34,047 nt of DNA from Acidobacteriota bacterium (lineage in GTDB: Bacteria; Acidobacteriota; Blastocatellia; HR10), in assembly GCA_030550025.1 (NCBI GenBank), contig JAUQQC010000019.1, positions 1 to 34,047 of the forward strand. The letters are read 5' to 3'. A model generated the notes under the pieces. It made no database searches. It saw nothing but the letters and a program-made list of their open reading frames with translations, and was not told the origin of the DNA. Below are positions 1,419 through 33,546 of the stretch, piece by piece. Every line of letters begins with the position of its first letter. Within the stretch, counting starts at the first letter, position 1. Position numbers and translations under genes: made by a program.

Positions 1419-2393
1419 TCAATAGTTGGCGACCCATCGGACGGCTTGGACGATCTCCTCCACTTGGGGGAGGAAGAATTCCTCCAGCGGAGGACTGAAC
1501 GGGATCGGCGTGTCCGGGGCCGTGACGCGAACGACGGGCGCTTCGAGGTACTCGAAGATGCGCTCGTTGATACGCATGGCGATCTCCCCGGCGATCCCTC
1601 CCGTGCGCGTATCCTCATGAACGATGACGGCGCGTCCCGTTTTCGCCACCGAGCTGAGGATGGTCTCGTCGTCCAAGGGCAGGAGCGTGCGCAGATCTAC
1701 GACCTCGACCTCGATGCCTTCCTGCGCGACGATCTCGGCTGCTTCGAGTGACTTGTGCAGCATCCATCCGTAGGTCAGGATGGTGACATCCCGGCCCAGA
1801 CGCTTGATGTCCGCTTTCCCAATGGGGACGATGTAGTCGCCCTCAGGCACTTCCCCTCGGATGCGACGATAGAGATATTTGTGCTCGAAGTAGAGCACGG
1901 GGTCCTCGTCCCGAATGGCAGCCTTGATGAGGCCCTTGGCGTCATACGGCGTGGCGGGCTCCACGATCTTCAACCCAGGCGTGTGGAAGAAATACGCTTC
2001 GACGTTCTGCGAATGGAAAGGGCCCCCGTGCACGCCGCCGCCGCAAGGGCCGCGCACGACAATGGGGACGCCCGCGCCCCAGCGATATCGGCACTTCGCG
2101 GCGAAGTTCGTCAGTTGGTCGAAAGCGATGGAGATGAAGTCAATGAATTGCATCTCGGCGACCGGACGCAAGCCCACTAGGGCCGCTCCGATGGCCGCGC
2201 CCACGATGGCCGCCTCCGAGATCGGCGTGTCGATGACGCGCTCTTCGCCGAAACGTTCGAGGAATCCTTCGGTGACCTTAAACGCGCCTCCATAGACGCC
2301 GATGTCTTCGCCGAGCAAGAAGACGCGTTCATCGCGCTCCATTTCCTCCCAGAGCCCTTGGCGAATGGCTTCCAAGTAGGTCAACACGGGCAT
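1419..2393 (-). CDS. 2-oxoacid dehydrogenase E1 beta subunit (branched-chain-like)
   Basis: Beta subunit of the thiamine-diphosphate-dependent E1 component, which decarboxylates a 2-oxoacid and acylates the E2 lipoyl arm. At 324 aa it is full length for the family. The N-terminal half carries the transketolase-like pyrimidine-binding fold (GEDIGVYGGAFKVT, then DTPISEAAIVGAAIGAA) and the C-terminal half the transketolase C-domain (VDLRTLLPLD, HEDTRTGGIAGEIA). The segment VLYFEHKYLYRRIRGEVP resembles branched-chain E1-beta more than pyruvate E1-beta, so a branched-chain substrate is favoured but not proven. It starts 16 bases after the E1-alpha stop, behind a GAGGAGG ribosome site, so the two subunits are co-translated. 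If branched-chain, the complex supplies isobutyryl-, isovaleryl- and 2-methylbutyryl-CoA for catabolism and as primers for iso/anteiso fatty acids. Confidence 0.95.
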   Translation of the reverse strand: MPVLTYLEAIRQGLWEEMERDERVFLLGEDIGVYGGAFKVTEGFLERFGEERVIDTPISEAAIVGAAIGAALVGLRPVAEMQFIDFISIAFDQLTNFAAKCRYRWGAGVPIVVRGPCGGGVHGGPFHSQNVEAYFFHTPGLKIVEPATPYDAKGLIKAAIRDEDPVLYFEHKYLYRRIRGEVPEGDYIVPIGKADIKRLGRDVTILTYGWMLHKSLEAAEIVAQEGIEVEVVDLRTLLPLDDETILSSVAKTGRAVIVHEDTRTGGIAGEIAMRINERIFEYLEAPVVRVTAPDTPIPFSPPLEEFFLPQVEEIVQAVRWVANY

Positions 2394-2409
2394 AAGCGGT
2401 GGTACCTCC

Positions 2410-3438
2410 TCAGGATCGAGTCCTCACCGCGTGCTCGCGCGGCAGAGGAGCGACTTCCGAAACGGAAGGCGTCTCGGCATAGACCCCCTCCAAGGCGATT
2501 CGCGGATCAGGCATCGGCGACTGCTCCGCATACTGCAGATCGGCCTCGATCTCCTGTTCGATGCGATGGGTGATGGCCTCGAAATCGGTCTCATCGGCCA
2601 TGCCGTGCTCTTTCAGATAGGTCTCCAGGCGAAGGATCGGATCGCGCTTCTGCCAATACTCGAGCAGCTCGCGGGGGACGTACCAAGCGTCGTCATGCTC
2701 GGCATGACCGCGCATGCGGAAGGTCTTGACCTCCAGCAACGTCGGCCCCAATCCTTCGCGCGCTCGCTCGACGGCGCGACGCGTGGCGTGATAAACGGCG
2801 ATGACGTCGTTGCCGTCCACCGTCTCGCCGAAGATCCCGTAGCCGATGGCGCGATCGGCGATATTCTCAATGGCCATCTGTTTATGTTTGGGCGTCGAGT
2901 AGGCGTAGCCGTTGTCCTCAGCGATGACGATCAAGGGGAGCTTCAAGACGGCGGCGAAGTTCAGGCCTTCGTGGAAAGCTCCCGTGCTGGTCCCCCCGTC
3001 GCCAATATAGGTGAGAGCGACCGAGCGCTTTCGCTGCATCTTCGAAGCCAGGGCGATTCCGGCCATCACCGGGATGAGATCACCGAGATGGCTGATCGGA
3101 GGGATGATGCCGCGTTCTACGCTCCCGAAGTGAACGATATTATCCTTGCCGCGCGTCGGGCTCGTCCCCTTGCCCATGTACTGAGTGAAAACTTCCCAGG
3201 GGCGAACGCCCCGCACAAAGAGCGCGCCGAGGTTCCGGATCATCACCGCCAGGAAATCCCCCTCTTCGAGAGCGTAAGCGCTGGCGACGGATTCGCCCTC
3301 CTGTCCGAGACTGCGATAGAGACCCCCTACGATCTTCCCTTGCCGGTAGAGGCGCTGCAGCCGTTCCTCCACCATTCGGGTCAGTTTCATGTAGTAGTAC
3401 ATGTCCAGGAGCTGCTCGCGGGTCAGCGTCTCCTCCAT
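2410..3438 (-). CDS. 2-oxoacid dehydrogenase E1 alpha subunit
   Basis: Alpha subunit of the E1 component and partner of the E1-beta encoded just downstream. I chose the ATG at 3438 (342 aa, beginning MEETLTREQ) because GGAGAGAG lies about 7 bases before it; the open frame extends 22 codons further upstream into sequence without family similarity. The thiamine-diphosphate motif is intact: GDGG at 146-149 and the closing asparagine at N176 (AEDNGYAY). The loop RMRGHAEHDDAWYVP corresponds to the substrate/phosphorylation loop of the family. It is the first gene of the E1-alpha, E1-beta, E2 operon, preceded by a plausible promoter (3570-3599) divergent from greA. The separate alpha and beta chains rule out the homodimeric AceE type of E1. 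Substrate (pyruvate versus branched-chain) remains open; the E1-beta sequence leans to branched-chain. Confidence 0.95.
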   Translation of the reverse strand: MEETLTREQLLDMYYYMKLTRMVEERLQRLYRQGKIVGGLYRSLGQEGESVASAYALEEGDFLAVMIRNLGALFVRGVRPWEVFTQYMGKGTSPTRGKDNIVHFGSVERGIIPPISHLGDLIPVMAGIALASKMQRKRSVALTYIGDGGTSTGAFHEGLNFAAVLKLPLIVIAEDNGYAYSTPKHKQMAIENIADRAIGYGIFGETVDGNDVIAVYHATRRAVERAREGLGPTLLEVKTFRMRGHAEHDDAWYVPRELLEYWQKRDPILRLETYLKEHGMADETDFEAITHRIEQEIEADLQYAEQSPMPDPRIALEGVYAETPSVSEVAPLPREHAVRTRS

Positions 3439-3569
3439 ACGTGGCTCTCTCCATCTGAGACGGGAACGGATTGCAAGGGCGGGCCGAAAGACCGCGCCCC
3501 ACACGTCCTTTCTCTCCCGCTTCGCTCACAAAGGCGTGGCCTCATGCCGTCCTCGCGAAGTCGCCTATT

Positions 3570-6240: not shown

Positions 6241-6346
6241 TTTTGAGTTGCTTGTGACCTGAGCGCTCATCGCTTTGGCCCGGAGTTTGCTTTCAAGAAT
6301 GATGTCAAGGGGTCTTTTTGCCCAAGACTGGTATGGGAGGAGGCCT

Positions 6347-7972
6347 ATGGGGGGAGGAATCGTGCGAGAAGGAAGCGGGTGGACCTATTGCGGGGCGCCT
6401 GTGGCTCCGCTGCCCAAAGGGTTACCGAAGCTCGTCGAGTCCATCTGTCCGGAATGTCGTCGCATCATCCCCGCGCGCATCTTCGAGCACGAAGGACGGG
6501 TGATGATGGAGAAGCGATGTTCGGAGCACGGCGAATTTCGAGACATCGTCTGGTCCGATGTTCGACTCTATCTGAAAGCCGAGCAATGGGCCTTTGAGGG
6601 AGGGCGTGGGGTCTCCAATCCGGCTGTGCCGGATGCCGTGCTCTGCCCGCAGGATTGTGGCCTCTGTCAGATGCATTTGAGCCACACGGGCTTGGCGAAC
6701 ATTGACCTGACGAACCGTTGTAATTTGACCTGTCCCGTCTGCTTCGCCAATGCGAACGTAGCGGGGTATGTCTATGAGCCTTCGCTCGAGCAGGTCTATC
6801 GGATGCTGCGGCAATTGCGCGAGATGCGCCCGGTCGCAGCTCGGGTCATTCAATTCTCGGGCGGGGAGCCAACGATCTATCCTCATTTCCTCGAGGCTGT
6901 GCGAATGGCGCGGGATTTGGGGTTCTCGCATATTCAGGTCGCCACAAACGGCCTTCGATTCGCCACCGAGCCCGGCTTCGCCGAGAGGTGCGCTGAGGCT
7001 GGATTGCATACGCTCTATCTGCAGTTCGATGGCTTGAGCGACGAGATCTATCGTAAGACGCGCGGGCAGCCGCTCTGGGAGTTGAAGCAGCAGGCCGTTG
7101 AGGCTGCCCGTCGGGCGGGATTGAAGATCGTCTTCGTCCCGACGATCGCGCGTGGGGTGAACGATCATGAGGTCGGCCGCATCCTGCAGTTCGCCCTCGA
7201 GAATATTGACGTCGCGTCGGGCATCACGTATCAACCGGTGACGTTCACCGGGCGCATCGCTCAGAAGAAACGGGAGCAAATGCGCTATACGCTCACCGAC
7301 TTGGTGAAGGACCTGGCCGAGCAGACCGGAATCGTGGACACGTACTACGATTGGTATCCCACGCCCTGCACCGTCTCGTTCTCGCAGTTCTTGAGCGCCT
7401 TGCAGGGAGAGGAGACGATCGCCCTCACCTGCCATCCCCATTGTTCGCTGGCGACTTATCTCTTTGTGGACGCGCGGACGAAGACGGCGATCCCCGTCAC
7501 ACGCTTCGTGGACGTGGAGGGGATGCTGCGAGCGTTCCGCGAGTGGGCGCCACGAATCCGTCAGCTTCCTTCCAAGAAACTCCGGGCGATGATGGCGTAT
7601 GTTGTCCTGCGGCGGTTCTTCCGCTCGGAGGCCGCGCCACCGGGATTGACTTACGTGAAGTTCCTCCGAACGCTCGAAGGGCTCGTGGACAAGCGCATCG
7701 GGCGCGGGGAGAACGAGGAGCGGCTCACCTATCGAACGCTCATGGTCGCCGGGATGCATTTCATGGACGCCTACAACTATCAGCTCGATCGCGTCATGCG
7801 CTGCGTCATTCACTATTCGGCTCCCGATGGGCGAATCTACCCCTTCTGCACGTACAACTCGGGGATCACATTCCGCGAGAGGATCGAGCAGAGCTTCTCG
7901 ATCCCCTTGGAGGCGTATATCGCGGCTTCCGAGAAGGGACCCGTAACGACGAGAACCGTCTTGAAGGTGTGA
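6347..7972 (+). CDS. Tes/MJ0619-type radical SAM protein (candidate membrane-spanning lipid synthase)
   Basis: Radical SAM enzyme of 541 aa from the ATG at 6347, which has GGGAGGAGG just upstream; a longer frame from a TTG at 6275 has no ribosome site. The radical SAM motif is CNLTCPVC (C125, C129, C132), followed by FSGGEPT. Extra cysteines match the multi-cluster layout of archaeal tetraether synthase Tes: CPEC (34, 37), C58, CPQDCGLC (100, 104, 107), CHPHC (362, 366), C486 and C501. Tes joins two lipid tails carbon to carbon at unactivated methyl ends; MJ0619 was earlier annotated as a pterin dimethyltransferase. Bacterial homologues are proposed to make iso-diabolic acid and other membrane-spanning lipids, notably in Acidobacteriota. 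Family membership is clear from the sequence; the lipid role here is inference. An adenosine-specific kinase follows 64 bases downstream. Alternative: a related radical SAM enzyme with another substrate. Confidence 0.85.
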   Translation: MGGGIVREGSGWTYCGAPVAPLPKGLPKLVESICPECRRIIPARIFEHEGRVMMEKRCSEHGEFRDIVWSDVRLYLKAEQWAFEGGRGVSNPAVPDAVLCPQDCGLCQMHLSHTGLANIDLTNRCNLTCPVCFANANVAGYVYEPSLEQVYRMLRQLREMRPVAARVIQFSGGEPTIYPHFLEAVRMARDLGFSHIQVATNGLRFATEPGFAERCAEAGLHTLYLQFDGLSDEIYRKTRGQPLWELKQQAVEAARRAGLKIVFVPTIARGVNDHEVGRILQFALENIDVASGITYQPVTFTGRIAQKKREQMRYTLTDLVKDLAEQTGIVDTYYDWYPTPCTVSFSQFLSALQGEETIALTCHPHCSLATYLFVDARTKTAIPVTRFVDVEGMLRAFREWAPRIRQLPSKKLRAMMAYVVLRRFFRSEAAPPGLTYVKFLRTLEGLVDKRIGRGENEERLTYRTLMVAGMHFMDAYNYQLDRVMRCVIHYSAPDGRIYPFCTYNSGITFRERIEQSFSIPLEAYIAASEKGPVTTRTVLKV

Positions 7973-14896: not shown

Positions 14897-16834
14897 ATGC
14901 GACGATGGCTCGCACAGGGCGTCATAGGGATGCTGTTTGCGGTGGAAGTGGTGACGGGAGCGCAAGCGGAAGTGGGATTCAGTTGGCAGTGGAGTCCGAT
15001 GGGACCGTATGGAGGGGAAGCGCGGCGACTGGCCGTTGATCCGCGGCATCCGGATCGCGTCTTCGTCGGGACGTGCGACGGACAGCTCTATCTCTCCGAA
15101 GACGGTGGAGAGCAGTGGACGAGGCTCACTGGGTTCCATCGCCCGGGGTTCTGCATCTCTCGGATTCTCGTGGACGCCGAGGATTCAAGGACGATCTATG
15201 TGGCCGGGTGGCAGGTGTCCGTCGAACAAGGTGGGGGGATTTACCGAAGTCGCGATGGTGGACGGACATGGACGCTGCTGCCGGGAACGGAGATGCATTC
15301 AGTGCGCGCTTTGGCGCAAGCGCCGAGCGATCCCCGCGTGCTGATTTTCACGGCATTGGATGGAGTCTTTCGTAGCGAGGATCGGGGAGAGTCATGGCGG
15401 CGCATCTCGCCGGCTGAGGACCTGGAGATTCGGAACGTGGAATCCATCGCCATTGATCCACGTTCGGATCAAACGCTCTATGTGGGGACGTGGCACTTGC
15501 CATGGAAGACCACCAATGGGGGGCGGACGTGGACGAAGGCGGGGAGTCGAGAGACGGGGATCATTGACGATTCGGAGATCTTCAACATTCTCATTGACGA
15601 GCGAAATCCGGATCTTTTGTGGCTGAGCGCGTGCACAGGGGTCTACCGTTCGACAGATGGAGGGCGGAGTTGGCGTCGAATGGCGGGATTGCCGTCGCGA
15701 AGTCGTCGGGTGTTAGCGTTGGCGAAGCCGGTCGGGCAAAGGGATGTGCTCTTTGCAGGGACAACGGAGGGGTTATGGCGGACTGGGGATGGCGGGGCGA
15801 CATGGCGTCTGATAACAAGTAGAAGGTTAACCGTGCAAGATATCGCTCTTCACCCGCAGCGACCGCAATGGGTATTCATCGCGACCGAGGAGGCGGGCGT
15901 TTGGATCAGCCGGGATGGAGGGATGACGTTCCGCCCCTCGAATCAAGGGTTTTCGAGCTGGGTGATCACTGGTATTCTTCCGGATCGCGAGATCCCTGGG
16001 CGCATCTACTGCGGCGTGGTGGGAGGGGGGCTAGAAGGGAGCTTTTTCATCAGCGAAGATGGGGGAAGGAGCTGGCGAGCGCGCTCCCTCAGGGGAGTGA
16101 GGGCAATTCTCCAATCGCGGCGGGACGGACGACGGCTCTTCGTCCTGACCGAGGATGGGATCTTTCTCTCGGAGGATCGTGGGGAGAGTTGGCGGAAGGG
16201 ACCGCCTTTGGAGGAGGTCATCTCGCAGATTGCCGAGGCGAGCGATGGGGGACTTCTGGTCCTGACGTCGCGCGCACTCCTTCGATATGATGAATCGCGG
16301 GGAGGGTGGGAGCGCGTGCGCTCGGTCGACGGGCAGTCGCTGGCGGCGCTACACGTCGGTCGGAGGATATGGATCGTGGGCCAGGGGCGCATTTGGATGA
16401 GCGAGGATGGAGTTTCATGGGTGGAGCGGGCGTTACCGGATCGCGTGGGGAGAGTTCACGTGATTCTTGAACATCCGAGCGACTCCGATCTTCTCTTCAT
16501 CGGCACGTCGTTTGGCCTGTATCGTTCTCGCAATGGGGGAAGGGATTGGGAGCGATGTGCTCACGGACTTCCTCATGCGGATGTCGTGGCGATCGCCGTT
16601 CATCCGAACGATCCTCGATGGATGTTGGTCACGGACTATCGTACGGGGGCCGTTTATCTGTCCACGGATCGCGGGGAGACGTGGCGGCGGATTGACGAAA
16701 CGGTGGGAGCGCGAGCATGGGTGGGAGCGTTCGATCCTCATGATGGAGAGCGAGTGTTCGTCGGCTCGCGCGGGATGGGCGTTTATATGGGCCGGCGATC
16801 GGTGCAGCTTGTCGAGCGAGAAAATTCCCCTTGA
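14897..16834 (+). CDS. Secreted Asp-box (BNR/sortilin-like) beta-propeller protein
   Basis: A 645-aa exported protein built of repeats. The ATG at 14897 follows GGAGGGA by 4 bases. A signal peptide ends at about AQA-E (residue 24). The rest is a tandem series of about a dozen Asp-box strands of pattern S-x-D-x-G-x-x-W, for example YLSEDGGEQW, YRSRDGGRTW, FRSEDRGESW, YRSTDGGRSW, FISEDGGRSW, YRSRNGGRDW and YLSTDRGETW. Each is preceded by a strand such as VFVGT or LFAGT. This is the architecture of ten-bladed sortilin/Vps10 or BNR propellers. There is no sign of sialidase catalytic residues and no C-terminal anchor. A role in ligand binding, protein scaffolding or photosystem-like assembly (YCF48 relatives) is possible; none can be assigned. 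It follows gdhA by 18 bases. Confidence 0.9.
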   Translation: MRRWLAQGVIGMLFAVEVVTGAQAEVGFSWQWSPMGPYGGEARRLAVDPRHPDRVFVGTCDGQLYLSEDGGEQWTRLTGFHRPGFCISRILVDAEDSRTIYVAGWQVSVEQGGGIYRSRDGGRTWTLLPGTEMHSVRALAQAPSDPRVLIFTALDGVFRSEDRGESWRRISPAEDLEIRNVESIAIDPRSDQTLYVGTWHLPWKTTNGGRTWTKAGSRETGIIDDSEIFNILIDERNPDLLWLSACTGVYRSTDGGRSWRRMAGLPSRSRRVLALAKPVGQRDVLFAGTTEGLWRTGDGGATWRLITSRRLTVQDIALHPQRPQWVFIATEEAGVWISRDGGMTFRPSNQGFSSWVITGILPDREIPGRIYCGVVGGGLEGSFFISEDGGRSWRARSLRGVRAILQSRRDGRRLFVLTEDGIFLSEDRGESWRKGPPLEEVISQIAEASDGGLLVLTSRALLRYDESRGGWERVRSVDGQSLAALHVGRRIWIVGQGRIWMSEDGVSWVERALPDRVGRVHVILEHPSDSDLLFIGTSFGLYRSRNGGRDWERCAHGLPHADVVAIAVHPNDPRWMLVTDYRTGAVYLSTDRGETWRRIDETVGARAWVGAFDPHDGERVFVGSRGMGVYMGRRSVQLVERENSP

Positions 16835-30173: not shown

Positions 30174-31058
30174 ATGTCGCGCGATCTCGTCCGCGAATTC
30201 CTGACGTACCTGCGGATCGAACGCGGGCTCTCGGCCAATACGATCGAGGCCTATCGCCGCGACCTAGAGCGAGTCGCTGCTTGGGCCCAGGCCGAGCGTC
30301 AGAAGGATCTTTTGAGCCTCTCGCGGGAGGACATCCGAGAGTTCCTGCGATGGATGAACGAACAAGGGCTTGAGGCTAAGAGCGTGGCGCGTTGTATCGT
30401 GACGTTGAGAAATTTCTTCAAGTTTTTGATCTTGGATGGCGTCTTAAAGAGCGATCCGACGATAAATCTTGAAACACCAAGATCATGGCAAACGCTTCCG
30501 AGGTTCCTCACGATCGAGGAGGTTAATCTTCTTCTTGAGCAGCCTGATGTCACTCGTGATATTGGGGTTCGCGATCGCGCCATCCTCGAGATCCTCTACG
30601 CGACGGGGTTGCGGGCTTCAGAAGTGATCGCCCTGCGGCTTGGTGATGTTGACCTAGATAAAGGCGTCGTGATCTGCCTGGGCAAGGGGAGCAAGGAGCG
30701 TCTAGTGCCACTTGGACGATCGGCCATCGAGTGGGTTTTGAAATATCTTCCCATACGACAGCGATGGCTCGGGCAGAAGACCTCGCCGTGGTTGTTCATC
30801 TCGCCACGCGGACGTCCTCTGACGCGTCAGGCCCTGTGGAAGTTGGTCGCCCGATATGGACGAACGGCCGGACTGGGGCGAGTCATGCCGCACATGCTGC
30901 GGCATACCTTCGCCACGCACCTTCTGGAGCACGGGGCCGATCTGCGGTCGGTCCAGATGATGCTCGGCCATTCCGATCTGAGCACGACGCAAGTGTATAC
31001 CTACATCACCAACGAGCGGCTTCGGCAGATCTACGATCACTGTCATCCTCGAGCCTGA
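30174..31058 (+). CDS. xerD: Site-specific tyrosine recombinase XerD
   Basis: Tyrosine recombinase resolving chromosome dimers at dif. The ATG at 30174 follows GGAGGG by 6 bases. 294 aa, the usual Xer length. The N-terminal SAM-like domain spans about 1-88. The catalytic set is complete: R147 (GLRASE), K171 (GKGSKER), H240 and R243 ([16 protein letters not shown]), H266 (LGHSDLSTT) and Y275 (VYTYIT). Length and motifs fit XerC/XerD rather than a phage integrase, and no attachment site, tRNA or cargo is near, so I call it housekeeping. XerC versus XerD cannot be fully decided by eye. A stretch at about 30410-30560 is visibly A/T-richer than its surroundings. It is divergent from lpxD. Confidence 0.93.
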
Positions 31059-31070
31059 CCGAGCGTTTTC

Positions 31071-31100
31071 TTGACACGCCGATTATCGGTGTGATAAAGT
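31071..31100 (+). promoter_or_regulatory. Putative metK-ahcY promoter
   Basis: A perfect TTGACA (31071-31076) and TAAAGT (31095-31100) are 18 bases apart. Predicted transcription starts near 31107, leaving about 23 bases of leader containing the GGGGGAGG ribosome site. There is no room for a SAM riboswitch. Confidence 0.55.
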
Positions 31101-31129
31101 CTCGCGCCTGCGAATCCAAAGGGGGAGGC

Positions 31130-33546
<2,417 letters not shown>

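Follow-up and report, generated by a model that had tools for sequence, protein, structure and literature searches.

Branched GDGTs (brGDGTs) are widely used as temperature and pH proxies, and their producers are poorly known. In archaea, the coupling of lipid tails is catalyzed by the GDGT-MAS of M. jannaschii, MJ0619. This enzyme proceeds through two hydrogen abstractions, a bond between the substrate and a sulfur of the C-terminal cluster, and then C-C coupling; it makes little demand on the head group, and bacterial phosphatidic acid from E. coli was bound in its pockets (PMC9433317). In bacteria, 456 homologues of the tetraether lipid synthase (Tes) were found by Zeng et al. in 2022, brGDGT synthesis was proposed for them, and iso-branched and phytanyl chains are alike at their tail ends (PMC8941075). 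Tes homologues also occur in 281 Black Sea bacterial MAGs, and in the same study bacterial Tes activity is stated to be unconfirmed (PMC11868695); no later assay of any bacterial Tes was found in the literature searched.

S. usitatus makes brGDGTs and possesses two Tes homologues as well as PlsAR (PMC10087280). In Pyrinomonas (class Blastocatellia) iso fatty acids are dominant, with iso-C15, and iso-diabolic ethers are present (PMC4644332). Cultured subdivision-4 strains make iso-diabolic acid, and brGDGTs were not detected in them (PMC13274423). Hot springs harbor polar brGDGTs of in situ origin, in most cases at temperatures no higher than 70 °C, and there is evidence of thermophilic producers (PMC3737515).

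The tes gene and its product

The window, the whole 34,047-nucleotide stretch analysed here, is contig 27 of a 3.17-Mb genome (98.7% complete) from the 'HR10' genus of the Blastocatellia (Acidobacteriota). A sequence-only reading of the window had picked out a Tes/MJ0619-type enzyme from a radical SAM CX3CX2C motif, the cysteine groups CPEC, CPQDCGLC and CHPHC, and two late cysteines. All of these are present and could be aligned to MJ0619. The features of the gene are:

6335..6343, + strand: Shine-Dalgarno-like GGGAGGAGG, found in the sequence ahead of the ATG at 6347; strong
6347..7972, + strand: 541-aa radical SAM enzyme of the Tes type, a tetraether (membrane-spanning) lipid synthase (NF045702, 7TOL match, AlphaFold2 model, VIA)
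6446..6529, + strand: rubredoxin-type iron site C34, C37, C58, H61, aligned with MJ0619 C9/C12/C33/H36; Pfam Zn_ribbon_HMPTM 6e-20
6644..6667, + strand: N-terminal auxiliary [4Fe-4S] cluster C100, C104, C107 (CPQDCGLC), aligned with MJ0619 C73/C77/C80
6719..6742, + strand: radical SAM CX3CX2C motif C125, C129, C132, aligned with MJ0619 C98/C102/C105; PF04055 4.4e-28
7442..7849, + strand: C-terminal auxiliary cluster domain with C366, the labile M470, C486 and C501, and the active-site Tyr490 (column mapping; roles from PMC9433317)
8022..8522, + strand: adenosine-specific kinase family gene, PF04008 5.2e-78

On the + strand the reading frame is open from a TTG at 6275 to the stop at 7970-7972. 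Since the ATG at 6347 has the strong Shine-Dalgarno sequence, 6347-7972 is the likely gene. A promoter scan returned nothing above chance.

The window protein scores 579.3 bits (E 5.7e-174) against NF045702, the NCBIfam model of Tes with a curated cut-off of 450 bits, and the match covers model positions 3-485 of 486. Its best solved relative is GDGT-MAS (7TOL, E 4.7e-137), and its identity to MJ0619 is about 44%; the two E values exclude a chance match. By family membership, as read from the sequence, 6347-7972 encodes a Tes, in agreement with the earlier identification. It is highly unlikely that the protein is instead TrsS-like or another non-lipid radical SAM enzyme with the common domain layout. 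The TrsS model NF045646, the next distinct family after Tes, does match it with 350 bits, but this lies under the cut-off of 490 and the best stretch is confined to residues 54-373, whereas the Tes match is full length and the C-terminal auxiliary domain is intact. Even less credible is a methyltransferase acting on pterin (HMPT), as the MJ0619 family was formerly annotated and as the name of the Pfam zinc ribbon still suggests. That annotation was shown to be wrong by the structure and assays of MJ0619 (PMC9433317), and the window protein has the complete set of residues by which the Tes active site is defined.

Column mapping showed that none of the metal ligands seen in the MJ0619 structure is lost, and that window Tyr490 corresponds to MJ0619 Tyr459. 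The idea that each cysteine group coordinates a cluster had to be amended in one place: in CHPHC only the last cysteine (C366) is a cluster ligand, while the first (C362) matches no MJ0619 ligand. The cysteines of the N-terminal auxiliary cluster were mapped in 43/43 bacterial Tes and in 0/10 of the Tes-like paralogues described below. In about half of the archaeal Tes sampled (loci L069-L115) they are missing or unaligned, so this cluster may be dispensable.

The predicted structure points the same way. An AlphaFold2 model, built from 50 window and locus sequences, reached a pLDDT of 88.8 and a pTM of 0.90. By VIA it aligned with 7TOM over 484 residues at 2.1 Å (Z 52.6), with MoaA as the next family (Z 21.7), and Foldseek against 7TOL/7TOM gave E about 3-3.8e-57 and a TM of 0.84-0.85 of the query. 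In this model the expected overlay on GDGT-MAS holds over nearly the full length, and the region and helices of the lipid pockets superpose.

Proposed reaction

With a probability of about 0.78, the window gene is a bacterial Tes that joins two iso-branched glycerol-3-phosphate (G3P) lipid tails into iso-diabolic chains, a step to branched GDGTs. Because every element is kept, the same chemistry as in MJ0619 would be expected. The two lipid tails would sit in two hydrophobic pockets, and two SAM-derived 5'-deoxyadenosyl radicals would be used in turn, taking hydrogen from the terminal carbons of the two tails. The first alkyl radical would be parked on the C-terminal [4Fe-4S] cluster, followed by formation of an sp3-sp3 C-C bond to the second. 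The substrates would be the host's own iso-branched (probably iso-C15) G3P lipids, and the products iso-diabolic (13,16-dimethyl octacosanedioic) membrane-spanning chains, ester- or ether-bound. Both the activity and these substrates are what we infer by analogy with the described systems.

The genome encodes PlsY, and a search of it for GGGPS (PF01884), in which the positive controls matched, found none; its glycerolipids are therefore taken to be bacterial. PF13685 (G1P dehydrogenase) matches nearly all control genomes and is uninformative for G1P. That this organism makes membrane-spanning lipids, as had been suggested before, is a prediction from its genes. The LPS outer membrane that was also ascribed to it is putative, with OmpA- and TolB-like genes as its basis here.

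Gene neighborhood and the Ger/PlsA-like operon

No lipid gene is adjacent to tes in the window. The PF04008 gene starts 49 bases 3' of tes and is possibly co-transcribed with it; the order of the two is conserved within the HR10 genus. It is conceivable that this kinase serves the disposal of 5'-deoxyadenosine for Tes. In the sister genus the PF04008 gene is grouped with cvpA-purC-uvrA, without tes. Elsewhere in the window, 1419-3504 encodes 2-oxoacid dehydrogenase E1 alpha and beta, the alpha subunit falling under the PDH cut-off; the enzyme may act on branched-chain 2-oxoacids and so supply primers for iso fatty acids. At 30731-33546 a SAM synthetase gene adjoins one for S-adenosylhomocysteine hydrolase, and 14897-16834 encodes a long Sortilin/BNR beta-propeller protein that is above the cut-off of the F510_1955 glycosylhydrolase model.

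Elsewhere in the genome, and missed by the sequence-only reading together with the paralogue and the 2022 catalogue of bacterial Tes (PMC8941075), lies a further candidate for the lipid pathway:

about C29:318803-323730 (L152:4804-9730): split Ger/PlsA-like operon of three adjacent genes (HgdB-like, double BcrAD_BadFG activase, DUF2229), with a TetR gene ahead

In its domains this operon resembles a PlsA/Ger protein in split form. The HgdB-like protein has no Pfam match and was named because it resembles fused Ger-type proteins in their C-terminal portion. Two activase domains have been tied to Ger, the ester-to-alkyl-ether reductase, and Ger and PlsA are indistinguishable by sequence (PMC13274423). 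Such an operon could turn the Tes products into mixed ether/ester or tetraether (brGDGT-type) lipids. It is kept across the window's order, and the sampled members of the class outside that order showed none. In G008, a relative from the same order, a 10-kb stretch (L159:5840-15431) holds the paralogue, a 449-aa radical SAM gene and the split Ger-like operon.

Across the bacterial loci no single conserved neighbor of tes was found except Ger-type genes and the paralogue. Window-type tes has a fused Ger-type gene no more than about 5 kb away in three lineages, namely Acidobacteriota (L061, L168), bacterium L066 and Phycisphaerae (L092); in L168 Ger is directly downstream of tes in the same orientation. 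In Acidobacteriota a PF09989 Ger/PlsA-type protein, a family that also takes in PlsA and other activases, is encoded by 28/38 genomes with tes over the cut-off versus 61/358 without (Fisher 1.3e-12, ignoring shared ancestry). Counted by genus, the figures are 15/20 versus 38/190 (Fisher 1.1e-6, with the same disregard of ancestry).

Phylogeny and distribution

The nearest named Tes records are from an uncultured Blastocatellia MAG (94%) and from Bacterium HR10 and Bacterium HR08 (89%), all with the same gene order. HRbin-type genomes originate from hot springs, and the window's organism is taken to be a hot-spring Blastocatellia. In trees drawn from the best 80 matches, Tes of bacteria and archaea together are split from the Tes-like paralogue outgroup with a support of 100/100. 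Archaeal Tes form their own 100/100 clade; the window's genus falls outside it, among bacterial Tes (Terriglobia, Eisenbacteria, Auribacterota), and not in a clade of non-lipid radical SAM enzymes, as the Tes identification had required. A quick tree with more rows gave the same placement. The node of window Tes has a support of 88/91 and also includes archaea, Eisenbacteria and Auribacterota, so the exact bacterial sister is not fixed. An archaeal origin of window tes was considered as well and is unsupported, given its position among bacterial Tes.

Tes over the cut-off occurs in 38/396 Acidobacteriota genomes. Among 47 Blastocatellia genomes the window type was found in the window's genus only, and a search of 34 closer relatives outside the genus gave 0/34. 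G005, from the sister genus, has both of the gene blocks that flank tes, but on different contigs and without the gene, for which reason no clean empty site could be found there. The patchy distribution, combined with a synteny break exactly at tes, suggests that the gene was gained by transfer between bacteria or repeatedly lost.

The confinement to one genus of the class and the separated flanks in G005 could also be read as a recent transfer without a working role, or as a contaminating contig. This is very improbable, as in G002 and G003 tes lies at the same location with the same neighbors, the protein is 87-94% identical across the HR10 genus, its GC3 of 0.76 is similar to that of neighboring genes, and the functional residues are kept.

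A Tes-like paralogue and the division of labor

The source genome also encodes a Tes-like paralogue (about C13:118512-120581), a protein of 689 aa that reaches 323 bits against NF045702 and thus stays under the cut-off of 450. A 383-aa radical SAM protein is encoded ahead of it on the same strand (the pair at about C13:117309-120581, L007:9310-12582). Paralogues of this type (about 690 aa, 320-350 bits) occur in nearly all Blastocatellia sampled and are widespread in Acidobacteriota. According to column mapping they keep the ligands of the rubredoxin, radical SAM and C-terminal cluster sites and are without the cysteines of the N-terminal cluster. This type is 34-38% identical to window Tes, forms a separate 100/100 clade, and has Trp in place of window Tes His471. 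Some Blastocatellia contain a third, shorter Tes-like type (frames of about 525-590 aa, 35% identity; G014:C57:66061-67401, G020:C2:297052-298476, G028:C2:613283-614704).

Pyrinomonas has iso-diabolic acid apparently without a window-type Tes, so this acid may not need window Tes, and as Blastocatellia without window tes make it (PMC4644332), the paralogue or Mss may be the true coupling enzyme and window Tes could have another function. A possible, if tentative, alternative is that the paralogue (or Mss) makes iso-diabolic acid and window Tes closes the second chain, so that macrocycles of the brGDGT type (tetraesters or tetraethers) arise in place of open lipids with a single bridge. The near-universal paralogue and the window type confined to the HR10 genus are consistent with this, as are the subdivision-4 strains that contain iso-diabolic acid but in which brGDGTs were not found (PMC13274423) and S. 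usitatus, rich in brGDGTs and equipped with two Tes homologues (PMC10087280). Moreover, the two types lie 0.2-6 kb apart in L044, L059, L062, L160, L161 and L162. The identities of 40-42% versus 32% in Zeng 2022 (PMC8941075) fit those measured here for the window type (43-46%) and the paralogue type (30-33%), although the published strains are assigned to a type by these identity values only. Against such a division, MJ0619 closes both bridges by itself, and Edaphobacter aggregans, apparently with the paralogue type only, yields some brGDGT. The reading of window Tes as the enzyme that forms the iso-diabolic chains is preferred.

Implications for brGDGT producers

Judged from its genes, the HR10-genus acidobacterium is a good candidate source of branched tetraether lipids. 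Its genome provides a concrete thermophilic candidate that combines Tes, the Tes-like paralogue and a Ger-like operon. A bolder proposal, which we consider somewhat unlikely, is that the HR10 genus is a thermophilic hot-spring producer of true brGDGTs, and that window-type Tes with the paralogue and Ger separates brGDGT-making acidobacteria from those with iso-diabolic acid only. The Tes type present suggests itself as a simple gene-based predictor of the two outcomes. The prediction of brGDGT production is testable, since hot springs contain brGDGTs made in place (PMC3737515). Bacterial Tes homologues have been known since Zeng 2022 (PMC8941075), and window Tes is a further case. We found no description of a thermophilic genus of the Blastocatellia in which the two Tes types occur together with a Ger-like operon, or of the gene linkage between tes and Ger.

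Comparison with known systems

Window Tes resembles the MJ0619 GDGT-MAS (7TOL, 7TOM; PMC9433317) in its domain layout, four metal sites, active-site Tyr and fold. The difference lies in the host, which is bacterial, has G3P fatty-acyl lipids and lacks GGGPS; archaeol is therefore an unlikely substrate. The archaeal isoprenoid GDGT pathway, in contrast, uses G1P ether lipids made via GGGPS, and PF01884 is missing from the window's genome. Mss of Thermotogota and Bacillota (PMC13274423) is, like Tes, a proposed chain-coupling radical SAM enzyme of bacteria. The literature regards it as a bacterial synthase in its own right. The acidobacterial Tes homologues (Ca. Solibacter, Ca. Koribacter; PMC8941075, PMC10087280) share a bacterial Tes group with window Tes, which is 55-63% identical to sequences of Bryobacterales, Solibacteraceae and Terriglobia. 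Unlike these acidobacterial enzymes, window Tes belongs to a thermophilic Blastocatellia genus and forms its own branch outside the Terriglobia cluster.
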